This document shows, piece by piece, positions 42,799 to 55,706 of a stretch of 64,000 nt of DNA. The notes below the pieces were generated by a model that worked only from the letters and a program-made list of their open reading frames with translations, was not told where the DNA came from and made no database searches. Source of the DNA: Rhynchopus sp. YZ270_cl-10 (taxonomy: Eukaryota > Euglenozoa > Diplonemea > Diplonemida > Diplonemidae); assembly GCA_964035575.1 (NCBI GenBank), contig OZ037901.1, positions 310,001 to 374,000 of the forward strand. Reading direction: 5' to 3'. Position 1 is the first letter of the stretch, and each line of letters begins with the position of its first letter. Made by a program: the position numbers and the translations under genes.

Positions 42799-43007
42799 TT
42801 TTTTTGATAAAACAACTTGTTGTCAATTCTAAAAAGATTGGAGGCAGCGCTGCAGGGCAAACAAAACGGATTGAAAAAAACAGAAGCTTGCTTGTTTTCT
42901 TTGAGTACTCAATTAACCACAACAACCGTACTTCAGTTTAACACATTTTTTCACCTTTTTGTTTTCCCGGCTTTGAGCGCACAAACAAAAGACCCGATCT
43001 TTTTTTT
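42799..43007 (+). repeat. 209-bp direct repeat, copy 1
   Basis: This segment, from the T-run before GATAAAACAACTTGTTG to the GACCCGATCTTTT end, recurs at 43385-43593 with a constant offset of 586 bp and no visible indel. The 377 bp between the copies holds the polypyrimidine microsatellite and a hairpin and has no open frame of note. A recent local duplication is the simplest reading. Confidence 0.9.
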
Positions 43008-43018
43008 GTTTGAATTCC

Positions 43019-43190
43019 CATCCCCCCTCTTCCCCTCTTCCCCTCTTCCCCTCTTCCCCTCTTCCCCTCTTCCCCTCTTCCCCTCTTCCCCTCTTCCCCT
43101 CTTCCCCTCTTCCCCTCTTCCCCTCTTCCCCTCTTCCCCTCTTCCCCTCTTCCCCTCTTCCCCTCTTCCCCTCTTCCCCTCTCTCCCCTT
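43019..43190. repeat. Polypyrimidine octamer microsatellite (CCCCTCTT)n
   Basis: About 21 head-to-tail copies of an 8-bp unit make a pure C/T strand. The complementary strand has regularly spaced GGGG runs (AAGAGGGG), so both triplex and G-quadruplex formation are possible. It lies between the two 209-bp direct repeats and is translated in no credible gene. Confidence 0.95.
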
Positions 43191-43246
43191 ACCCCTTTTT
43201 TTGGCGTACCTCCTTTTCACTGTGCTTCTCACTTCATTTATGTGTT

Positions 43247-43275
43247 GATGAATGTGCCTGAGATGCACATTCATC
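43247..43275. other. Perfect 11-bp hairpin
   Basis: GATGAATGTGC and GCACATTCATC pair around a 7-nt loop (CTGAGAT). It sits alone between the microsatellite and the second direct repeat. No function can be assigned. Confidence 0.5.
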
Positions 43276-47223: not shown

Positions 47224-47712
47224 ATGGTCGGCGCAAAGAAGGGAGTGAAGAGGGGACCGTCTGTGTCTCTGTCTGAGATGTCTGGTCTGACCTTCCCTGT
47301 GGGACGTGTGGGCAGTGCGCTGAAGAAGGGGAGGTACGCAAAGCGTGTGAGCCCCACTGCGGCAGTGTTCCTGACGTCTGTGCTGCAGTACTGCACAGGC
47401 GAGCTTCTGAACGTGTCTGCGAAGGCAGCGACATCGGGGAAGAAGGCGAAGAACAAGAAGCAACACCAGATCAAGCCCCGCCACATCTGCGTTGCCGTGC
47501 GTGAGGACAAGGACCTTGGCGACCTTCTGTCGAACGTGACGATTGCGGGTGGAGGTGTGGGTGGAGGAGTGCACGATGCGCTCAAGGCAACTGACAAGAA
47601 GTACAGGAAGAAGTCCTCTGGCAGCGTGACGAAGAAGTCAAAGGGGAAGAAGGGTGGAAAGAAGGGCAAGAAATCCAAGGGCTCCCCCAAGAAGTCCTCC
47701 CCGAAGAAGTAA
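47224..47712 (+). CDS. H2A: Histone H2A, copy 1
   Basis: This is a divergent core histone of 162 residues (canonical about 130), packaging DNA as the H2A-H2B dimer. The histone fold is clear: GLTFPVGRVGSALKKG at 21-36, then SVLQYCTGELLN, then KPRHICVAVREDKDLGDLL and NVTIAGGGV. Against canonical H2A, acidic-patch positions E56, E64 and E91 appear as Q55, N63 and K96, while E61, D90 and E92 are kept as E60, D95 and D97. The second loop has a Lys-rich insertion of about six residues (around 75-82). The tail is Lys-rich and ends in two SPKK motifs (154-157, 159-162), a minor-groove-binding and kinase-target type. A trans-splice acceptor is likely at CAG 47186-47188 (35-nt leader). The double hairpin at 47774-47815 follows. 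The protein is identical to copy 2. Confidence 0.96.
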   Translation: MVGAKKGVKRGPSVSLSEMSGLTFPVGRVGSALKKGRYAKRVSPTAAVFLTSVLQYCTGELLNVSAKAATSGKKAKNKKQHQIKPRHICVAVREDKDLGDLLSNVTIAGGGVGGGVHDALKATDKKYRKKSSGSVTKKSKGKKGGKKGKKSKGSPKKSSPKK

Positions 47713-47773: not shown

Positions 47774-47815
47774 CCTTACACCCGAAGAGGGTGTGAGGTG
47801 GTGTGACTGCGCACC
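47774..47815 (+). promoter_or_regulatory. Histone 3' double stem-loop, H2A copy 1
   Basis: H-I pairs CCTTACACCC with GGGTGTGAGG around GAAGA (one G-U pair). One base later H-II is GGTGTG-ACTG-CGCACC, a 6-bp stem with one G-U and a 4-nt loop. H-II starts 88 nt after the stop codon. A purine-rich ACAAAAAAGAGCAG follows 9 nt downstream, recalling the downstream element of animal histone genes. Role inferred: mRNA 3' end formation or stability. Confidence 0.75.
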
Positions 47816-47947
47816 GCATATGTGACAAAAAAGAGCAGCGGAATCCTATTTTTCCCTTCTCGCCCCTTCACCACACCCACCACGCCTAAACACAAGCACA
47901 AACCACTCCTACAGATTACCAAGACAACAGCCACACAACACAACAAG

Positions 47948-48388
47948 ATGCCACGCACACCTGCCAAGTCTGTGAAGAAGTCGCAGTCGTCGACTGGAAA
48001 GGACGGTGAGCAGAAGAAGAGGAAGCCGATGACGAAGCTGAACTACAAGCCCGCTGAGAAGAAGGACAAGAAGGGGAAGGTGGTGAAGAAGTCTGGCCGC
48101 TGGTTGCCCGGAACTGTTGCGATGCGTGAGATCAAGGCACTGCAGAAGGGGACGCAGCTGCTGATCCAGAAGGCACCCTTCCAGCGCCTTGTGCGTGACG
48201 TGATGGACAAGCACAAGCAGGACATGCGTTTCCGCGCGTCTGCACTCGAGGCGATGCAGGAGGCAAGCGAGCAGTACCTGATCAGCGTGTTCGAGGGTGC
48301 CGTGATCCTGCAGCTCCACAGGAAGAAGAAGACCCTCATCCAGAAGGACCTCAGCTACACCATCCGCATCCGTGGGGACAACCTCTGA
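47948..48388 (+). CDS. H3: Histone H3 (only copy in the window)
   Basis: The gene encodes 146 residues (canonical 135). The fold begins RWLPGTVAMREI at 51-62, equivalent to RYRPGTVALREI. It continues with LLIQKAPFQRLVRDV (71-85), where KAPFQRLVR rather than KLPFQRLVR is shared with trypanosomatid H3, then DMRFRASALEAMQEASEQYL, and ends RIRGDNL in place of RIRGERA. The Lys corresponding to H3 K79 is kept (K90). The N-tail is about 50 residues and begins MPRTPAKSVKKS. It lacks ARTKQTAR and both ARKS contexts, so classical K4, K9 and K27 sites are not present as such. The FEDTNLCAIH segment is FEGAVILQLH, without the conserved Cys. The acceptor is probably CAG 47912-47914 (33-nt leader). The 3' region is interrupted by an inverted-repeat element (48458-49296). 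Confidence 0.95.
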   Translation: MPRTPAKSVKKSQSSTGKDGEQKKRKPMTKLNYKPAEKKDKKGKVVKKSGRWLPGTVAMREIKALQKGTQLLIQKAPFQRLVRDVMDKHKQDMRFRASALEAMQEASEQYLISVFEGAVILQLHRKKKTLIQKDLSYTIRIRGDNL

Positions 48389-48457
48389 AAGTGAGCTGGC
48401 ATGAGCACGTGCTGTTTCACTTGCGTTGAGTTTTATTTTTATTTTTTGAAAATATAT

Positions 48458-49296
48458 GGGTCCGTCCGGAAACCCTCCTGGTAAGATTCATCCTTTTGGG
48501 GTTTTTTGAGGTTTTTCTGCTCAAAACACCCAAACAACCCAATTTTTTGATACCCACCATACACCTACCACCCCAGAGGGCATATTTTGGGCATTTATTT
48601 TTGTTTATTTCCCCTCCCCCCCTTTTTACTTATATTTTTTTACGTATTTTTTGGAAGAAAAAAACGTGGCAATGACAGCAGTGAAGTTCACTTTTTTGTC
48701 GAGAAACACGGTAAGAATGGGTGCGACGCACACTTGGTGTCGTTTCGAACCCTCTCTCTGATGATTCTTGTTGTCAGGAGATCCTTACCGTAGGGGTCAT
48801 TGTCGGTGCCCTGCGCGAGCTTCCCCACACAGAGGCCTTTGTTATCTCATTCCCTCGTACTCATACGTATCAGTGCACCCTTCTTTCCATCAATCTCTTT
48901 TCGTCTGTGTACTGCTACCCGAGCAACGGTCGTGTCATTTCAGCTAGCGTGTACTCTGACACGGAGGGAACCTGTATTTACTATGGAGTCTCCACATCCA
49001 AGGTGACCCGCAAAGCAAAAGTCCCTGGCATTGATCCAGTAGATTTGACAGAGGTCAATGAAACCTTGTCAAGGCGGCATGGCAGGATTAAGAGAAAGAG
49101 AGAAGAGATCCAGAAGAACGACAATAAAAGGCTGAAAATCTGATTTAAAAAGCGAAAATATAGCCTCAGACCCCCCAAAAAACCTATTTTCATATCAGAA
49201 TATCACCTAGATGCACTTTTTGTGGGGGGCATCATCAAAAAAACCCAAAAATACCCAAAAGGATGAATCTTACCAGAGGGGTTTCCGGACGAGTCC
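48458..49296. mobile_element. Inverted-repeat element inserted in the H3 3' region, carrying a spliced ORF
   Basis: The ends are inverted repeats of about 45 bp. The left has GTCCGTCCGGAAACCC and then GGTAAGATTCATCCTTTTGG; the reverse complement of the right end has the same blocks with a few mismatches. ATAT lies immediately outside both ends (48454-48457, 49297-49300) and may be a target-site duplication. The 839-bp interval contains the 134-codon two-exon gene at 48672-49143. Histone cluster copy 2 lacks both H3 and this element. The size, ends and position between the H3 stop and the histone-type hairpin all point to insertion. The superfamily is unknown and the ORF does not look like a transposase. 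Confidence 0.7.
48672..49143 (+). CDS. Small basic-tailed protein in two exons (intron 48711-48777), unknown function
   Basis: No ATG opens the long downstream frame, but ATG at 48672 gives 13 codons (MTAVKFTFLSRNT). GTAAGAATGG then starts a 67-bp intron ending TTGTTGTCAG at 48777. Exon 2 (48778-49143) continues in phase for 121 residues, giving 134 in total. A C/T-rich tract and AG at 48656-48657 precede the ATG by 14 nt and could be a trans-splice acceptor. The N-terminal two thirds is mixed hydrophobic with four Cys. The last 25 residues (RRHGRIKRKREEIQKNDNKR) form a basic, possibly helical tail like a nuclear targeting or nucleic-acid-binding segment. The gene lies wholly inside the inverted-repeat element 48458-49296 and upstream of the hairpin pair I assign to H3. 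I do not recognise the family. Confidence 0.6.
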
Positions 49297-49317
49297 ATAT
49301 TTTTTTTCACGTTTTTG

Positions 49318-49362
49318 CCTCTGTGAGCTTGCTAGCCAAGCCGGGAGGGGTGGATTACCACC
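49318..49362 (+). promoter_or_regulatory. Histone-type 3' double stem-loop, displaced from H3
   Basis: The base CCTC/GAGG with an inner GCTTG/CAAGC stem forms H-I. It abuts H-II, GGTGG-ATTA-CCACC (49349-49362). It lies 960 nt after the H3 stop, but only about 121 nt if the inverted-repeat element is subtracted, matching the spacing at other histone genes. As the DNA stands it is also downstream of the small spliced gene, which may have captured it. Confidence 0.65.
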
Positions 49363-49476
49363 AGTGACAAGTTTTTCAAAAAAAAGCCCCCATCTCTTCT
49401 CTTTCCCATCACCCACCACCTATTCTCTGCATATCATCACCCACAGTTTCTTCTCCACATACCAAACACACTCACA

Positions 49477-49737
49477 ATGCCGAGGTTCGAGTCGATCACG
49501 ATTGCCAAGCCTGACGCGAAGCGCTCTGCCAAGATCAAGGAGGCAGCGAAGGCGAGGAAGGACGCTGTGAGAATTGCAGTGAAGAAGGTGAAGGACGCTG
49601 AGAAGCAGAAGCGTGCGGACGCCAGGGCCAAGAAGGCCGCAAAGAAGGAGGAGAAGGCGAAGAAGGCGAAGAAGGCCAAGAAGACCACCACGAAGAAGAA
49701 GGGAACGTCCACGAAGAAGAAGGACTCCAAGAAGTAA
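49477..49737 (+). CDS. H1: H1-like lysine-rich linker histone, copy 1
   Basis: The 86-residue protein is about one third Lys, rich in Ala, with almost no hydrophobic residues after position 45. Residues 1-45 (MPRFESITIAKPDAKRS, then KARKDAVRIAVKKVKD) could form one helix. The rest is AKKA/KKAKKAKK repeats ending TSTKKKDSKK. There is no winged-helix globular domain, so it resembles the short C-terminal-domain-like H1 of kinetoplastids and some other protists and some bacterial H1-like proteins. The likely role is linker-DNA neutralisation and chromatin compaction. The acceptor is probably CAG 49444-49446 (30-nt leader). A double hairpin follows at 49826-49873. It is identical in protein to copy 2, with one synonymous DNA difference. 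Confidence 0.85.
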   Translation: MPRFESITIAKPDAKRSAKIKEAAKARKDAVRIAVKKVKDAEKQKRADARAKKAAKKEEKAKKAKKAKKTTTKKKGTSTKKKDSKK

Positions 49738-49825
49738 GCTTGTGGCGGTCAGAACGTAGATACTTTGTGCCTTTGTGAGCTGTACTGTGTGTTGTAAGTT
49801 CTGTGTTTTTTTTTTGTACCAGTTA

Positions 49826-49873
49826 CCTCTGTGGCCTGCAAGCAGGCCACACAGAGGGGTGGAGATTCCCACC
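49826..49873 (+). promoter_or_regulatory. Histone 3' double stem-loop, H1 copy 1
   Basis: H-I is long: CCTCTG + TGGCCTGC pair with GCAGGCCA + CAGAGG (2-nt bulge, AA loop). H-II follows with no gap: GGTGG-AGATTC-CCACC. H-II starts 121 nt after the stop. ACAACAAGAAGAGAAG, purine-rich, follows directly. Confidence 0.75.
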
Positions 49874-50014
49874 ACAACAAGAAGAGAAGAACAATAATCT
49901 TCAAGAAAAACGAGCAGCGCAACCTTCTTATTTTGCTTTGCCTTCACTACTACCTCATTCCTCTCACCCTCATCCTCATCCTCATCAGATATTCAAGACA
50001 AAGCAACACACACG

Positions 50015-50356
50015 ATGGGTCCATCAAAGTCCGCCAAGGGAAAGTCGGTTGCCTCCGGAAAGGCTGACAAGAAGACAACCGGAAGCCAGAAGCGCAAGGG
50101 CGCAAAGTCGAACAAGGGCCGTGGAATCACGAAGGGAAGCATCCGCCGTCTGGCCCGCCGTGGAGGGTGCAAGCGTCTTGCGAGCAGCGTGTACGACGAG
50201 GCAAGGGAGATCCTGAGGAACTTCGTTGAGCAGGTGATGAAAGACACCCACGCGCTGATGGAGGTGCGTGAGAACGCCCCTGCGAAGACGGTGCGTGTGG
50301 AGCACATCCTGTACGCCCTGAAGAAGCGTGGCCGCACCCTGTACGTCTCCAAGTAA
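50015..50356 (+). CDS. H4: Histone H4, copy 1
   Basis: The protein has 113 residues (canonical 102). The fold is recognised from RGITKGSIRRLARRGG (36-51), KRLASSVYDEAREILRNFVEQV and ILYALKKRGRTLY (98-110). GSIRRLARRGG is the trypanosomatid form of the canonical PAIRRLARRGG. Between the second and third helices there are about three extra residues (VRENAPAKTV against HAKRKTV). The N-tail (MGPSKSAKGKSVASGKADKK) has lysines but not the canonical GKGGKGLGKGGAKR order, and the VLRDN region is replaced. The C-terminal GFGG is VSK. The acceptor is probably CAG 49986-49988 (26-nt leader). The double hairpin at 50494-50556 follows. The protein is identical to copy 2, with seven synonymous DNA differences. 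Confidence 0.95.
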   Translation: MGPSKSAKGKSVASGKADKKTTGSQKRKGAKSNKGRGITKGSIRRLARRGGCKRLASSVYDEAREILRNFVEQVMKDTHALMEVRENAPAKTVRVEHILYALKKRGRTLYVSK

Positions 50357-50493
50357 GCTGACACGTGGACTTTGTCTTTTTTACTTTGTTAGATTTAAAA
50401 AAAAAAGATGGGTTGTTGTTGTTTTTTATACACTTCCCTAATGCTTTCAAATTTTATTTGAAAGTATATGAATTTGTTTGTTAGTGTTGCAAG

Positions 50494-50556
50494 CTGTGCT
50501 GTTGCAGGACTGCATGTATTTGCTTCATGCGACAGCACAGTGGCGTAATTAACGCC
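50494..50556 (+). promoter_or_regulatory. Histone 3' double stem-loop, H4 copy 1
   Basis: H-I pairs CTGTGCTGT with ACAGCACAG around a 29-nt loop. After one T, H-II is GGCGT-AATTA-ACGCC, followed by T6. The element starts 138 nt after the stop. Both hairpins and much of the loop are conserved in copy 2 (53650-53704), while the surrounding intergenic DNA is not. Confidence 0.8.
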
Positions 50557-50692
50557 TTTTTTATTCTAAGAAAATATATAGTCCCCTAACCCTTACCCAG
50601 AACTTCCCTCTTTGTAATATCCAAGCAGCTGATCACAACACAAACCACCCATATCAGATACTTTTCGTAAACCACACCTCAAACCCAACAAG

Positions 50693-51175
50693 ATGACACC
50701 ATCGCCACAGAAGTCCTCAGGAAAGAAGGGAGCAAAGAGAGGCCCGAAGTTGGACAAGAACGGGAAGAGGATCAGGAAGCCGAACTACAAGAGCTACTCG
50801 ACCTACGTGCACAAGCTGATGACGAAGACTTTCGGGGTGAAGGCGTCGACGAAGGCGGGGAAGAAGAGCTCTGTTGCGATCACGTCGCGTGGGATGGGGA
50901 TTGTGAACTCGTTCGTGGTGGACCTGTTTGAGCGCATTGCGGAGGAGGCGGGACGCGCAAACCACTTTGCGGGTCAGAAGACGCTGCGCAGCGGTGCCAT
51001 TGTGGCGGGTGTGAAGATGCACTTCCCCGACGAGATGGCGTCGCACGCCCTGTCTGCAGGAGTTGCTGCCGTGGCCATGTACGCGAAGGCCCTGAAGGCG
51101 AAGAGCAAGGCCAAGGGCAAGGGATCCCCGAAGAAGAAGTCCTCCCCGAAGAAGAAGAGCTCCCCGAGGAAGTGA
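50693..51175 (+). CDS. H2B: Histone H2B, copy 1
   Basis: The protein has 160 residues (canonical about 125). Diagnostic segments are KSYSTYVHKLM (33-43), GMGIVNSFVVDLFERIAEEAGRA (67-89) and FPDEMASHALSAGVAAV (111-127). The first loop carries about eleven extra, mostly basic or small residues (around 50-62, ASTKAGKKSS). Acidic-patch E105 is kept (E114) but E113 is A122. The position of ubiquitinated K120 is M129, although Lys occurs at 132 and 135. The C-tail adds three SPKK/SPRK motifs (145, 151, 157), unusual for H2B and of the kind that binds AT-rich minor grooves and is phosphorylated by cell-cycle kinases. The acceptor is probably CAG 50655-50657 (35-nt leader). The double hairpin at 51222-51265 follows. 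Confidence 0.95.
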   Translation: MTPSPQKSSGKKGAKRGPKLDKNGKRIRKPNYKSYSTYVHKLMTKTFGVKASTKAGKKSSVAITSRGMGIVNSFVVDLFERIAEEAGRANHFAGQKTLRSGAIVAGVKMHFPDEMASHALSAGVAAVAMYAKALKAKSKAKGKGSPKKKSSPKKKSSPRK

Positions 51176-51221
51176 AGCAACTGATGTAATGTGATGTGAT
51201 GTGTTGCTTGTTGAGTTGATA

Positions 51222-51265
51222 CACGCCCCTTGTTTCAGACACGGGGCGTGGGTGGTACTGCCGCC
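51222..51265 (+). promoter_or_regulatory. Histone 3' double stem-loop, H2B copy 1
   Basis: H-I pairs CACGCCCC with GGGGCGTG (13-nt loop). H-II follows directly as GGTGG-TACTG-CCGCC (one G-U pair). H-II starts 76 nt after the stop. Confidence 0.75.
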
Positions 51266-51401
51266 GTCTTTTTGTAAAGCAAAATAAACAAACAAAAAAT
51301 GCAAACTGGTTTTTCACCCTCTACTCAACTCCCGCAAATCACACCTCCACACCTTTCTGCTTCCAGATATATTTTACACCAACACACCCTCAAGACAAAC
51401 A

Positions 51402-51890
51402 ATGGTCGGCGCAAAGAAGGGAGTGAAGAGGGGACCGTCTGTGTCTCTGTCTGAGATGTCTGGTCTGACCTTCCCTGTGGGACGTGTGGGCAGTGCGCTG
51501 AAGAAGGGGAGGTACGCAAAGCGTGTGAGCCCCACTGCGGCAGTGTTCCTGACGTCTGTGCTGCAGTACTGCACAGGCGAGCTTCTGAACGTGTCTGCGA
51601 AGGCAGCGACATCGGGGAAGAAGGCGAAGAACAAGAAGCAACACCAGATCAAGCCCCGCCACATCTGCGTTGCCGTGCGTGAGGACAAGGACCTTGGCGA
51701 CCTTCTGTCGAACGTGACGATTGCGGGTGGAGGTGTGGGTGGAGGAGTGCACGATGCGCTCAAGGCAACTGACAAGAAGTACAGGAAGAAGTCCTCTGGC
51801 AGCGTGACGAAGAAGTCAAAGGGGAAGAAGGGTGGAAAGAAGGGCAAGAAGTCGAAGGGCTCCCCCAAGAAGTCTTCCCCGAAGAAGTAA
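51402..51890 (+). CDS. H2A: Histone H2A, copy 2
   Basis: The protein is identical to H2A copy 1 (162 residues, same acidic-patch changes, loop insertion and SPKK tail). The DNA differs at only a few synonymous positions, all near the 3' end. Identity extends upstream through the whole 35-nt leader and stops at the predicted acceptor CAG 51364-51366; DNA before that is unrelated. That boundary supports both the acceptor call and homogenisation of the transcribed unit. It starts the second, H3-less half of the cluster (H2A-H1-H4-H2B). Confidence 0.96.
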   Translation: MVGAKKGVKRGPSVSLSEMSGLTFPVGRVGSALKKGRYAKRVSPTAAVFLTSVLQYCTGELLNVSAKAATSGKKAKNKKQHQIKPRHICVAVREDKDLGDLLSNVTIAGGGVGGGVHDALKATDKKYRKKSSGSVTKKSKGKKGGKKGKKSKGSPKKSSPKK

Positions 51891-51980
51891 GCTCTATGAG
51901 CAGCTTCACTGAACTCATCTATGTTGACGTCTCTTGTTTGTTTGTGCGTTACGTTGCGTTGCGTGTTTGTGTATTTTTTA

Positions 51981-52022
51981 CCCCATGATCCGTATGGATG
52001 CAGGGGGGTGTGATTACACACC
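51981..52022 (+). promoter_or_regulatory. Histone 3' double stem-loop, H2A copy 2
   Basis: H-I pairs CCCC/GGGG and ATCC/GGAT with a small internal loop. H-II abuts it: GGTGTG-ATTA-CACACC, a perfect 6-bp stem with a 4-nt loop. H-II starts 117 nt after the stop. The primary sequence of H-I differs completely from copy 1, so the structure appears to be conserved rather than the sequence. Confidence 0.8.
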
Positions 52023-52239
52023 GTTTTAGTGTTCATGTTTTTACAACGAATCTTCTCCCGACAGGGGTATCAGAAATTGTAAAAAAAACAGAGTCCCCTC
52101 CTCTCCTCCCTTCTACCTGAAGGCTTGGTTTGAGTTTGTATCATTGAATGGCACCGCTCGTTTTCCTTACAAAATGTACTCTATTCTCATAGATGAGAGC
52201 AAGCGGGAGTAGCACATATCGGATGGTTAGCCTCGAAAT

Positions 52240-52319
52240 GGATGTAGGACTGCGTGGTTGGGTGTGCACCCCTGGTGTACCGGTAATGTATATTGTCATG
52301 AGAGGGATGTTGGATTTCA
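52240..52319 (+). repeat. Dispersed 80-bp repeat, copy A
   Basis: GGATGTAGGACTGC, then CACCCCTGG, then ACCGGTA, then GAGAGGG and GGATTTCA. It matches copy B (59246-59328) at roughly 70 percent by eye. It lies in the gap between H2A copy 2 and H1 copy 2, the interval that holds H3 in the first half of the cluster. Nothing else is evident in 52023-52440. Confidence 0.5.
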
Positions 52320-52488
52320 AGTTAACATTTTTTTTTTTTGTGTTTATCACCGTATCCAAGGAAAGTGGATGCAGTCTCCTTCGACTCGTTCCGATGACAG
52401 TAGTTGACGCTATTTAGTGTTCTGAACTTCCACCACCATGACCCTACATACAACAGTTCTGTTATATACCACAACAAACACACTCACA

Positions 52489-52749
52489 ATGCCGAGGTTC
52501 GAGTCGATCACGATTGCCAAGCCTGACGCGAAGCGCTCTGCCAAGATCAAGGAGGCAGCGAAGGCGAGGAAGGACGCTGTGAGAATTGCAGTGAAGAAGG
52601 TGAAGGACGCTGAGAAGCAGAAGCGTGCGGACGCCAGGGCCAAGAAGGCCGCAAAGAAGGAGGAGAAGGCGAAGAAGGCGAAGAAGGCCAAGAAGACCAC
52701 CACGAAGAAGAAGGGAACCTCCACGAAGAAGAAGGACTCCAAGAAGTAA
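52489..52749 (+). CDS. H1: H1-like lysine-rich linker histone, copy 2
   Basis: It encodes the same 86 residues as copy 1, with a single synonymous change (ACG to ACC near the end). The leader is partly conserved (CACACTCACA before the ATG), with the acceptor probably CAG 52454-52456 (32-nt leader). Its 3' hairpin pair lies farther away than in the other genes (H-II 312 nt after the stop), which suggests that extra sequence was inserted between them. Confidence 0.85.
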   Translation: MPRFESITIAKPDAKRSAKIKEAAKARKDAVRIAVKKVKDAEKQKRADARAKKAAKKEEKAKKAKKAKKTTTKKKGTSTKKKDSKK

Positions 52750-53028
52750 GCCCCACGTGCTCGATCGATGAGGATTTAGTTAGTAAATGTGTTTACCAAT
52801 GTTGTAAATTTTGTGCCTTTTTTTTATGATAACATTTGTGTCGCTGTGCAAAGATAAGTGGGTAGCATGAGGGCAACAATAACGAATTTGCTTTATTGTT
52901 TAGTAGTGAAAGCGCGTACAAAAAGTATTCTTGCCCGGGTTACAACTGAACGTTTTTTTGTTTGTGTTAATGTGTTCCATGTACATGGTCACTTTGTTTA
53001 AGCTTGTTTGTTATAATTTTGACGTTTA

Positions 53029-53077
53029 CCTCCGTGCTCCAGCTTGCTGGACACGACGAGGGGTGGATATTACCACT
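53029..53077 (+). promoter_or_regulatory. Histone 3' double stem-loop, H1 copy 2
   Basis: H-I has CCTC/GAGG at the base and TCCAGC/GCTGGA at the top, with bulges. H-II abuts it: GGTGG-ATATTA-CCACT (terminal G-U pair). A purine-rich CAACAACAAAAAGAGGGG follows. The order hairpin, GGGGTGGA, CCAC, CAACAA is shared with copy 1 although H-I has changed in sequence. Confidence 0.7.
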
Positions 53078-53235
53078 GCAACAACAAAAAGAGGGGAAAA
53101 GAACCCCAGAAGCAATGATCTTCACCAACCTAAAGACATGTTTCAAGTAAATATTTCACATCTCTCCTTGTGCACCCTTCAACTTGATCCCTATCCAACG
53201 CACCAGATTAAAGAAAAAACAAAGCAACACACACG

Positions 53236-53577
53236 ATGGGTCCATCAAAGTCCGCCAAGGGAAAGTCGGTTGCCTCCGGAAAGGCTGACAAGAAGACAAC
53301 CGGAAGCCAGAAACGCAAGGGCGCAAAGTCGAACAAGGGTCGTGGAATCACGAAAGGAAGCATCCGCCGTCTGGCCCGCCGTGGAGGGTGCAAGCGTCTT
53401 GCGAGCAGCGTGTACGACGAGGCAAGGGAGATCCTGAGGAACTTCGTTGAGCAGGTGATGAAGGACACCCACGCGCTGATGGAGGTGCGTGAGAACGCCC
53501 CAGCGAAGACGGTGCGTGTAGAGCACATCCTGTACGCCCTGAAGAAGCGTGGCCGTACCCTGTACGTCTCCAAGTAA
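53236..53577 (+). CDS. H4: Histone H4, copy 2
   Basis: The protein is identical to H4 copy 1 (113 residues); the seven DNA differences are synonymous. The acceptor is probably CAG 53204-53206 (29-nt leader); the last 16 nt before the ATG match copy 1. The seven synonymous changes, against one to three in the other pairs, suggest that this pair was homogenised less recently. Confidence 0.95.
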   Translation: MGPSKSAKGKSVASGKADKKTTGSQKRKGAKSNKGRGITKGSIRRLARRGGCKRLASSVYDEAREILRNFVEQVMKDTHALMEVRENAPAKTVRVEHILYALKKRGRTLYVSK

Positions 53578-53649
53578 GCTGACATTGTTGAAGTGAGATA
53601 CGAGATGTGCGTGACTATTTGCTTTATTTTCCGCCAACCCCCCCACCAG

Positions 53650-53704
53650 CTGTGCTGTTGCAGGACTTTGCTTCATGCGACAGCACAGTGGCGTAATTAA
53701 CGCC
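53650..53704 (+). promoter_or_regulatory. Histone 3' double stem-loop, H4 copy 2
   Basis: The H-I stem CTGTGCTGT/ACAGCACAG and H-II GGCGT-AATTA-ACGCC are the same as in copy 1, with a shorter H-I loop (21 nt) and no T-run after. It starts 73 nt after the stop. Confidence 0.8.
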
Positions 53705-53838
53705 CCATTTCCATTGATAACAGACAAAGCTTGAAGCGAAAGCCCCCCTCTCTTTATGATGAGAACGTATCACAAACAACACAGCACAACCTTCCACGAC
53801 AGATATATTTTTAAACTACACACCTCAAACCCAACAAG

Positions 53839-54321
53839 ATGACACCATCGCCACAGAAGTCCTCAGGAAAGAAGGGAGCAAAGAGAGGCCCGAAGTTGGA
53901 CAAGAACGGGAAGAGGATCAGGAAGCCGAACTACAAGAGCTACTCGACCTACGTGCACAAGCTGATGACGAAGACTTTCGGGGTGAAGGCGTCGACGAAG
54001 GCGGGGAAGAAGAGCTCTGTTGCGATCACGTCGCGTGGGATGGGGATTGTGAACTCGTTCGTGGTGGACCTGTTTGAGCGCATTGCGGAGGAGGCGGGAC
54101 GCGCAAACCACTTCGCGGGTCAGAAGACGCTGCGCAGCGGTGCCATTGTGGCGGGTGTGAAGATGCACTTCCCCGACGAGATGGCGTCGCACGCCCTGTC
54201 TGCAGGAGTTGCTGCCGTGGCCATGTACGCGAAGGCCCTGAAGGCGAAGAGCAAGGCCAAGGGCAAGGGATCCCCGAAGAAGAAGTCCTCCCCGAAGAAG
54301 AAGAGCTCCCCGAGGAAGTAG
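53839..54321 (+). CDS. H2B: Histone H2B, copy 2
   Basis: The 160-residue protein is identical to H2B copy 1, with one synonymous change (TTT to TTC) and a TAG instead of a TGA stop. The acceptor is probably CAG 53800-53802 (36-nt leader); the 18 nt before the ATG match copy 1. It is the last histone gene of the cluster. Confidence 0.95.
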   Translation: MTPSPQKSSGKKGAKRGPKLDKNGKRIRKPNYKSYSTYVHKLMTKTFGVKASTKAGKKSSVAITSRGMGIVNSFVVDLFERIAEEAGRANHFAGQKTLRSGAIVAGVKMHFPDEMASHALSAGVAAVAMYAKALKAKSKAKGKGSPKKKSSPKKKSSPRK

Positions 54322-54358
54322 AAGGCTGTCACGGCACCCCAGCAAAACATACAATCCA

Positions 54359-54394
54359 CCGACCCTCTCTAGGGTCGGGGTGGCACTTACCACC
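54359..54394 (+). promoter_or_regulatory. Histone 3' double stem-loop, H2B copy 2
   Basis: H-I pairs CCGACCCT with AGGGTCGG (loop CTCT). H-II follows with no gap: GGTGG-CACTTA-CCACC. H-II starts 58 nt after the stop. H-I differs from H2B copy 1 in every base pair block, yet the layout is the same. Confidence 0.8.
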
Positions 54395-54512: not shown

Positions 54513-55706
54513 ATGTCACGAGATTCCCGCATAAAGTATAAGGTTGAATCCGACAAGGGTGTTCTCCTAAGCAACTTCGAGAGACGAGGGTGGGCACGGA
54601 GCACGGAGGATGACTGGAACATCTTTTGGACCTCTGTTTGGGCGGTCAAGGTGATTTTCTCTCCTGAAGGTGGCACGCGACTGAGCGACAACCAGATTGT
54701 AAACCACTTCCCAAACCACCACGAACTTACACGCAAAGACTGCATGGTCAAGAACGTGAAGCGCTACAAGAAGGACCACGAGAAGTACGCCTCCATCTAC
54801 AGCACCACAGGCGAGACTGTGAGCGACTACATCCCCCTGACGTACTCACTTCCCTCCGACTATGCGCTCTTCGTAGAGGAATATAAAAAGACGAACTCAC
54901 TCTGGATTGTCAAGCCTGCGAACCGTGCCCAAGGCAAAGGCATCTTCATCGTAACCAAACTGGGCCAGATCACGAAGTGGGCACGACAGAAGTGGTTGCA
55001 GGGTGAAGGCTACGGGTCGAAGGAGCAGTACATCATCTCGACGTACATTGAAGACCCGCTTTTGATTGGCGGAAAGAAGTTTGATTTGCGTCTCTACGTT
55101 TTGGTGACGTCGTACCGACCGTTGCGGGCTTATATGCACAAAGACGGCTTTGCACGGTTCTGCACTGTACCGTACAACACCGATTCCGGGGATTTGGACA
55201 ACCTCTTTGTGCACCTCACGAACGTCGCCGTACAGAAACAAGGTGATGAATACAACGAGCGCCACGGGGGGAAATGGAATGTCAACAACCTGCGCCTCTA
55301 CCTGGAGTCCATCTATGGGAAGGAGAAGTGTGACAAGCTGTTTTCCACGATTAACTTTGTTGTGATCCACTCTCTGAAGGCGTGTCAGAGTGTCATCACG
55401 AATGACAGACACTGCTTTGAGCTCTACGGGTATGACCTGCTGGTGGACGCTGCACTGCGTCCGTGGCTCATCGAAGTGAACGCATCACCGTCACTCTCCT
55501 TCACGACACCCATGGACCGCATGATGAAGTCCTCCGTAGTCAGCGACACACTCGACATAGTCATGCCAAACCCCTCCCCAGGCGAGCCTGACAAGCTCTA
55601 CAAAGACCACCGCATCGCCCCTGTCTCAGACCTCCAACTCGGCGGCTTCCAAGTCCTAATAGACGAAGTAGGAGACGTCCCCGAAAAACGAGGTCAAAAG
55701 CGATGA
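54513..55706 (+). CDS. TTLL1: Tubulin polyglutamylase, TTLL1 type
   Basis: The 397-residue protein aligns along nearly its whole length with animal TTLL1 (423 residues). Shared segments include LSDNQIVNHFPNHHELTRKD (57-76), ATP-grasp WIVKPANRAQGKGIF (131-145), GGKKFDLRLYVLV, LDNLFVHLTNVAVQ, GGKWNVNNLRLYLES and YGYDLLVD..PWLIEVNASPSL. TTLL1 is the catalytic subunit that adds glutamate side chains to tubulin within a multi-protein complex at basal bodies and axonemes, so the organism should be flagellated. The C-terminal tail of the animal protein is absent. A pyrimidine tract and AG at 54466-54467 give a 45-nt leader; CAG 54494-54496 is an alternative. No histone-type hairpin follows the stop. 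Confidence 0.93.
   Translation: MSRDSRIKYKVESDKGVLLSNFERRGWARSTEDDWNIFWTSVWAVKVIFSPEGGTRLSDNQIVNHFPNHHELTRKDCMVKNVKRYKKDHEKYASIYSTTGETVSDYIPLTYSLPSDYALFVEEYKKTNSLWIVKPANRAQGKGIFIVTKLGQITKWARQKWLQGEGYGSKEQYIISTYIEDPLLIGGKKFDLRLYVLVTSYRPLRAYMHKDGFARFCTVPYNTDSGDLDNLFVHLTNVAVQKQGDEYNERHGGKWNVNNLRLYLESIYGKEKCDKLFSTINFVVIHSLKACQSVITNDRHCFELYGYDLLVDAALRPWLIEVNASPSLSFTTPMDRMMKSSVVSDTLDIVMPNPSPGEPDKLYKDHRIAPVSDLQLGGFQVLIDEVGDVPEKRGQKR

Follow-up and report, generated by a model that had tools for sequence, protein, structure and literature searches.

Histone stem-loops and the stem-loop-binding protein (SLBP) are textbook knowledge for animals. Protozoan examples of both were reportedly described by Davila Lopez and Samuelsson in 2008, with Trypanosoma said to be among them, and we know of no tandem hairpin among protist histone stem-loops. 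In passages of the literature, stem-loops and SLBP homologues of protists and protozoa figure as already published (PMC12819152), histone stem-loops are given for Perkinsus (PMC6723414), and Trypanosoma brucei appears with two SLBPs (PMC8021392), with an SLBP phosphorylation that rises in S phase (PMC6907760), and with an SLBP2 that binds eIF4E2 through a segment without a canonical eIF4E-binding motif (PMC7139794). Here we describe a system of this kind in Rhynchopus sp. YZ270_cl-10, in a stretch of 64,000 nucleotides (the window; contig OZ037901.1, C69:310001-374000 of a 152-Mb genome in 126 contigs) whose nine histone genes (2 H2A, 1 H3, 2 H1-like, 2 H4 and 2 H2B) are each followed by two adjacent hairpins, H-I and H-II.

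The double hairpin is present behind nearly all canonical histone genes examined in this genome, specific to them and kept as a paired structure, with covariation in two alignments, and the same genome carries SLBP genes with the key arginine. Genome-wide specificity, covariation in two alignments and eight genes for SLBP-domain proteins together give good support to a structure-based, SLBP-related 3′ signal that is peculiar to histone mRNAs of the replication type, and the data are best read as an SLBP-type histone 3′ signal in a derived and elaborated form. H-II would very probably be a diverged descendant of the SLBP-bound eukaryotic histone hairpin, with the double hairpin marking canonical histone mRNAs.

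Genomic distribution of the double hairpin

The original prediction for this window had placed a double stem-loop behind all nine histone genes, with 0-1 nt between the hairpins, and refolding agrees with it: the minimum-energy fold of the H-I plus H-II region consists of exactly two hairpins at the nine sites (-18.7 to -35.6 kcal/mol), separated by 0 nt at eight of them and by 1 nt at the other. The H-II located by the prediction 58-121 nt past the stop in six genes starts 57-120 nt past it in five (57, 75, 87, 116 and 120 nt), while the distances proposed for the H4 copies (112 and 185 nt) were exact, and the larger ones announced for the second H1 copy (H1-2) and H3 amount to 312 and 960 nt.

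Five histone searches of the genome gave 336 match places, a figure that counts overlaps, fragments and variants, and the flanks of 209 histone-like genes were read, with the line between canonical and variant histones set after a first look at the data. A strict H-II, defined as GGYG...CRCC with at least five nested pairs and sought up to 250 nt past the stop, occurs in 139 of the 151 distinct canonical flanks. In 200 dinucleotide shuffles the mean is 1.45 and the count never exceeds 6, and of 224 further window segments of 250 nt, 1 matches on the plus strand and 2 match on the minus strand. The association of H-II with canonical histone genes is not due to chance. Because H-II is nearly self-complementary, 92 of the 151 canonical flanks also match the strict definition when read in antisense, and the strand was therefore assigned from the position behind genes.

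Counted per gene, 175/184 canonical histone genes carry a strict H-II, or 175/191 once the seven H3 genes placed among the variants are taken as canonical. Five more canonical genes match a relaxed motif only, three of them genuinely (H1-2 of the window and two H2B) and two spuriously, one of the latter being the H3 of the window, whose true H-II sits outside the 600 nt read. The four genes left without any H-II (one H3, one H2A and two H1) include one with just 332 nt of flank read and two fragments. Among the histones filed as variants, H-II was found in 4 of 24 distinct flanks (4/25 genes), corresponding to two array H1 genes misfiled by the identity threshold and two H4 variants on contig C54. 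These H4 variants (C54:366347 and C54:380673) are 87% identical to canonical H4 and bear the H-II GGCGTATCTAACGCC.

Searches with sequence patterns led to the same picture. The H1/H3 pattern GAGGGGTGGN{4,6}CCACC has 89 matches in the genome, 80 of which lie behind histone genes (52 behind H1, 27 behind H3 and 1 behind H2A, on the same strand and within 1000 nt) and 9 elsewhere, with 13 matches for the reversed control. The H4 pattern CAGNGGCGTNNNNNACGCC has 54 matches, 53 of them within 500 nt behind H4 genes, so that 53/55 H4 genes are covered, with a median distance of 112 nt, and its single non-histone match compares with 6 for the reversed control. Neither pattern shows an excess outside histone loci, and the abundant non-histone copies that the original prediction had named as evidence against itself are not seen. 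At ten non-histone pattern sites that were read, H-I was strong in one, weak in five (-2.4 to -5.5 kcal/mol) and absent in four; the strong one, on contig C82, reaches -12.9 kcal/mol, the weakest histone H-Is being at -5.3. No histone-search match falls on C82, nor was any histone-like open reading frame (ORF) seen by eye within the surrounding 3.4 kb. Moreover, a covariance model (R1), run on 64 of 81 sequence sources, gave 84 matches at E ≤10, of which 41 with at least 31 bits lie at H1/H3 sites and 43 are weaker and include antisense and other classes. No H2B relatives were confirmed in viral contigs. Another pattern, GAGGNGGTGKN{4,6}MCACC, was discarded as its spacer misses the H1/H3 form and most H2A forms; it had 88 matches, about 17 at histone loci and about 71 elsewhere, with 62 for its control.

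Conserved pairing and SLBP-domain proteins

The pairing of H-I was analysed in 115 distinct H-I plus H-II sequences by forcing the best hairpin to abut H-II and comparing it with shuffles of the same upstream DNA. H-I beats the shuffles in all five histone classes, with mean z values of -2.63 (H1), -3.51 (H2A), -2.38 (H2B) and -3.38 (H3), and of -3.26 for H4 with a 62-nt window (reached by 10/300 shuffles), a first window of 46 nt being too short for H4 (z -1.54, reached by 100/460). The 37 distinct outer five-base arm pairs, picked by folding and, for H4, taken from the short window, comprise 24 with 5/5 pairs, 12 with 4 and 1 with 3. When 60 nt of upstream sequence are added, the unconstrained fold favours other pairings at some genome sites: both hairpins were retained in 144/184 canonical genes, partially in 34 and not at all in 6, in a superseded tally that predates the final canonical/variant line (193 genes were canonical then).

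Compensatory change in H-I, as claimed by the original prediction, is visible in two alignments and little apparent in those of H2A and H4. The H2B alignment (16 rows) contains four H-I pairs with both partners changed, a number reached in 1/500 shuffles, although three of the four stem from one row, that of the second H2B copy of the window, and the covariation score is reached in 2/500. In the H1/H3 alignment (26 rows) the score is reached in 0/500 shuffles and the two pairs that change on both sides in 16/500. In both alignments the support exceeds that of the shuffles; its absence would have counted against the prediction. Slid registers pair in 39-65% of the cells versus 95-98% for the true register, with one slid H1/H3 register equalling the true one in number of pair types.

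H-II is 14-16 nt long, with 5-6 pairs and loops of 3-6 nt. A stem of 6 bp with a 4-nt loop (16 nt) is the form of only some H-IIs, such as those of the H2A copies of the window, others showing 5 pairs with loops of 4-6 nt or, in the first H2B copy, 6 pairs with a 3-nt loop. Among 42 distinct H-IIs, pair 2 is G-C in all, a position at which the search motif itself required GG, pair 3 is U-A, C-G or U-G, and pair 5 is G-C, U-A, U-G or C-G; their full pairing is partly by construction, because the motif required five pairs. Each histone class owns a set of H-IIs, and the two that are shared occur in two apparent chimaeras: an H2B gene with an H2A-type double hairpin (C30:675286) and an H2A gene with an H1-type one (C35:306729).

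With one gene per contig and 13-17 contigs per class, the identity of the H-II arms is 0.91-1.0 and declines past the hairpin to 0.40-0.77 at +1 to +5, 0.37-0.48 at +6 to +10 and 0.31-0.49 at +11 to +30. This profile replaces an earlier one that was biased, its flanks having been picked for differing beyond +10. Downstream of H-II come an A-rich stretch, with 54% A between +11 and +20, and a pyrimidine tract, an arrangement expected upstream of a trans-splice acceptor. H1 flanks contain an extra small inverted repeat, GAAGAnCAAnAATCTTC, about 8-17 nt past H-II (at 49886-49902 in the window), which is present in 11/15 de-duplicated H1 flanks. A known Rfam family was also sought at the hairpin sites, with nothing relevant found.

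A search for the SLBP RNA-binding domain, proposed in the original prediction, recovered eight genes above the PF15247 cut-off (domains of 54-94 bits), plus a ninth match that falls short of it at 18.2 bits. For L010, one of the eight, the closest relative with a name is a protein of Diplonema papillatum called "Histone RNA hairpin-binding protein". Both L010 and L011 could be aligned with the solved human and fly SLBPs, the other six having been aligned to L010, and the residue matching human Arg181 (counted from the TPNK threonine, 171) is an arginine in 8/8, as invariant as the histidine at 195. In human SLBP, Arg181 is described as making the sole base-specific contacts, to the second G of the stem (passage of PMC10388802).

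In a tree of 18 SLBP domains, the L011 group and the L012/L013 group join sequences from other data sets (support 98/96 and 99/96), and the multiplication of SLBPs therefore seems to predate this genome; 3 of the 15 inner branches of that tree are well supported, L015 and L016 are long branches, and the program warns of possible attraction between the L011 and L012 groups. A full-length domain scan, covering four of the eight proteins, pointed to possible effector regions. L009, L010 and four of their relatives (P0002-P0006) show a C-terminal PB1-like stretch, at E values from 6e-5 to 0.02 that are all below the Pfam cut-off; P0006, the only one of the seven without a PB1 match, aligns with the others. 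All seven share a conserved acidic C-terminal motif that resembles PB1. Against solved structures the PB1-like profile gave only weak matches, both to Cdc24 (E ~0.05), in a chain that we take to be its PB1 domain. L014 starts with MKYTREFLLSL and P0007 contains YSREFLLKF, both of which fit YxxxxL-phi, the eIF4E-binding pattern. The PB1-like and eIF4E-binding-like readings are offered as leads, and in the open-licence literature no publication joining PB1 with a stem-loop-binding protein was found.

Histone array of the window

The coordinates of the genes and hairpins are collected in Table 1. The large distance between the H3 stop and its H-II is due to a stretch bounded by inverted repeats of 68 nt (85% identity) that sits in between. 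It is probably an insertion, and its source may be a DNA transposon or a foldback element that left the hairpins intact. The stretch holds a short reading frame, which by eye could be completed through a GT..AG intron.

Table 1. Histone genes, hairpins and the repeat-bounded stretch, in positions of the window
Feature	Position	Strand	Basis
Histone H2A gene, copy 1	47224..47712	+	protein match C69:357224-357709 plus stop
H-I after H2A-1	47774..47798	+	fold
H-II after H2A-1, GGTGTG-ACTG-CGCACC	47800..47815	+	fold
Histone H3 gene	47948..48388	+	ORF, PF00125 match
Stretch bounded by inverted repeats, between H3 stop and H3 hairpins	48449..49305		arms 48449-48516 and 49238-49305
H-I after H3	49318..49348	+	fold; covariance model R1, 61.1 bits
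H-II after H3, GGTGG-ATTA-CCACC	49349..49362	+	fold
Histone H1-like gene, copy 1	49477..49737	+	ORF
H-I after H1-1	49826..49857	+	fold; R1, 66.4 bits (site belongs to R1's own alignment)
H-II after H1-1, GGTGG-AGATTC-CCACC	49858..49873	+	fold
Histone H4 gene, copy 1	50015..50356	+	ORF
H-I after H4-1	50493..50541	+	fold
H-II after H4-1, GGCGT-AATTA-ACGCC	50542..50556	+	fold; H4-pattern match
Histone H2B gene, copy 1	50693..51175	+	ORF
H-I after H2B-1	51222..51250	+	fold
H-II after H2B-1, GGTGG-TACTG-CCGCC	51251..51265	+	fold
Histone H2A gene, copy 2	51402..51890	+	ORF
H-I after H2A-2	51981..52006	+	fold
H-II after H2A-2, GGTGTG-ATTA-CACACC	52007..52022	+	fold
Histone H1-like gene, copy 2	52489..52749	+	protein match C69:362489-362746 plus stop
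H-I after H1-2	53029..53061	+	fold; R1, 57.6 bits (site belongs to R1's own alignment)
H-II after H1-2, GGTGG-ATATTA-CCACT (G-U closing pair)	53062..53077	+	fold
Histone H4 gene, copy 2	53236..53577	+	ORF
H-I after H4-2	53649..53689	+	fold
H-II after H4-2, GGCGT-AATTA-ACGCC	53690..53704	+	fold; H4-pattern match
Histone H2B gene, copy 2	53839..54321	+	ORF
H-I after H2B-2, sequence unlike H-I of H2B-1	54359..54378	+	fold
H-II after H2B-2, GGTGG-CACTTA-CCACC	54379..54394	+	fold

Signs of trans-splicing come from a spliced-leader-like exon, ...AACCAACGATTTCTAAAGCTACAGTTTCTGTACTTCATTG followed by GT in the nine copies displayed. The genome has 741 places that match a Diplonema-type leader with up to 3 mismatches (control, 0), the query being the sequence that we take to be the Diplonema leader; a first pattern gave 0 matches, and this longer, mismatch-tolerant one was used instead. 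Together with the nearest named relative of L010, this leader marks the host as diplonemid-like and not as a trypanosomatid. Directly beyond the histone array, the window contains an ORF of 397 aa (54513-55706) that by eye resembles tubulin-tyrosine-ligase-like proteins. Another ORF, on the minus strand at 42951-43274, consists mostly of a short Gly/Lys/Arg/Glu repeat (KRGRGEEG) and is probably a minisatellite.

Readings of the signal and known counterparts

The most plausible scenario gives H-II the role of histone mRNA stem-loop in this diplonemid-like flagellate, and at least one of the eight SLBP-domain proteins would bind it at the GG..CC foot of the stem. H-I would be an added, abutting hairpin with a fairly free sequence and a retained pairing, which most likely stacks end to end on H-II and could so keep its register or block rival folds, or else may serve as a second protein site. 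Canonical histone mRNAs, short and regulated together within polycistronic, trans-spliced units, would carry the pair as a mark of their 3′ end region, and this would allow the SLBPs to handle their 3′ processing, their stability and their translation in S phase separately from bulk mRNA.

Several observations weigh against this scenario. Both stem and loop of H-II depart from the animal form, neither the window region nor six other loci match RF00032 (Histone3) in Rfam cmscan at E ≤10, and no U7 RNA (RF00066) was found above the cut-off (best E 1.4, with 65 of 20876 candidates scored), which is a weak negative. Four array H3 genes on contig C30 (87-88% identity) have no H-II within 600 nt. 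The TPNK threonine is present in 6/8 SLBPs and TPNK itself in 0/8, and L014 contains a weak PAM2-like stretch (E 0.013, below the Pfam cut-off) that would suit poly(A)-tailed targets. Finally, pairs changing on both sides number 0 in the H2A alignment, where MAFFT misaligned H-I and the fold displays H-II alone, and 1, out of 10 pairs, in the automatic fold of the H4 alignment.

The PAM2-like stretch leads to the closest rival, in which the hairpins are regulatory elements of histone mRNAs that are polyadenylated in the ordinary way. SLBPs on an H-II within the 3′ untranslated region (UTR) would control translation and decay, and the end itself would come from the usual poly(A) machinery, coupled as in trypanosomatids to trans-splicing further downstream. 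We give this arrangement somewhat less than an even chance; it departs from the favoured reading in the last step alone, and the probabilities of the two overlap. Its appeal lies in the eIF4E-binding-like YTREFLL motif that L014 combines with that stretch, in the A-rich stretch and pyrimidine tract past H-II, and in what is stated for trypanosomatids, whose histone mRNAs are described in a passage as polyadenylated (PMC2691400) and whose T. brucei SLBP2 appears as a partner of the cap-binding eIF4E2 (PMC7139794, PMC8021392). A special end is suggested instead by the conservation, which falls within about 10 nt of H-II as it does at the animal histone 3′ end, and by the start of H-II about 100 nt after most histone stops, compared with the median 3′ UTR of about 800 bp given for Diplonema in part of PMC10161547. 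A more elaborate version of the special end, which we regard as rather unlikely, would be a two-hairpin, multi-SLBP code, in which class-specific H-I/H-II pairs are read by diplonemid-expanded SLBPs with varied effectors (PB1-like and eIF4E-binding-like), perhaps by way of PB1-linked dimers on a single RNA, so that histone mRNA ends in trans-spliced polycistrons become class-specific and independent of poly(A).

The remaining rivals concern the origin of the hairpins. Convergence with the metazoan stem-loop, with a non-SLBP factor as the reader, would fit the lack of a Histone3 match and of an animal counterpart of H-I known to us; what makes it very unlikely are the eight SLBP-domain genes, whose products have the guanine-reading arginine, and the GG..CC foot that H-II has retained. 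Of the inference in the original prediction, the structure-based, SLBP-related histone signal stands, and its convergent variant loses ground. Near-identical arrays, such as those on contig C35, could recall remnants of a spreading repeat or hairpins kept only through recent array duplication by concerted evolution, an idea that is hardly credible in view of the contrast between the arms and the sequence at +11 to +30 when each contig contributes a single gene, of the variety of outer H-I arm pairs (37 distinct ones) in one place, and of the absence of a copy excess outside histone loci. Polycistronic genomes need intergenic signals, and the hairpins could be imagined to serve every gene as a general signal for termination or processing, the least probable of these proposals, as H-II is almost confined to histone flanks within the window and the non-histone matches of the H1/H3 and H4 patterns stay below their controls.

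An SLBP-type signal of the kind favoured here would have been elaborated, not lost, in a trans-splicing lineage with probably polycistronic transcripts. Such a signal would open to experiment how a 3′ end reserved for histone mRNAs may coexist with splicing-coupled poly(A) formation and how old SLBP control may be, and the expanded SLBP set would offer natural variants for the study of RNA reading and translation coupling by SLBPs.

The contrast that the original prediction drew between animals and trypanosomatids goes too far, in view of the two T. brucei SLBPs and the protist stem-loops and SLBPs already in print. As in the metazoan system (RF00032), a short hairpin with a GG..CC foot and a small loop lies soon past canonical histone stops, it is mostly missing after the genes filed as divergent histone variants, and proteins with the SLBP RNA-binding domain are encoded. 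Unlike that system, there is a second abutting hairpin, H-II is class-specific with its own range of pairs and loops, the SLBPs number eight, and neither an Rfam match nor, among the candidates scored, a U7 RNA above the cut-off was obtained. Judged by description, the element and the protein are of the same kind as in other protists. T. brucei SLBP1 and SLBP2 are likewise euglenozoan SLBPs tied to histone mRNA and, in that species, to a cap-binding protein, with two SLBPs there against eight here and a YxxxxL-phi motif in L014 against no canonical motif in TbSLBP2. Titles and abstract beginnings of the open-licence papers listed yielded no description of a diplonemid or tandem histone stem-loop with SLBP, and the tandem architecture, the class-specific H-II and the multiplied SLBPs, two of them with PB1-like regions and one with an eIF4E-binding-like motif, look new beside these relatives.

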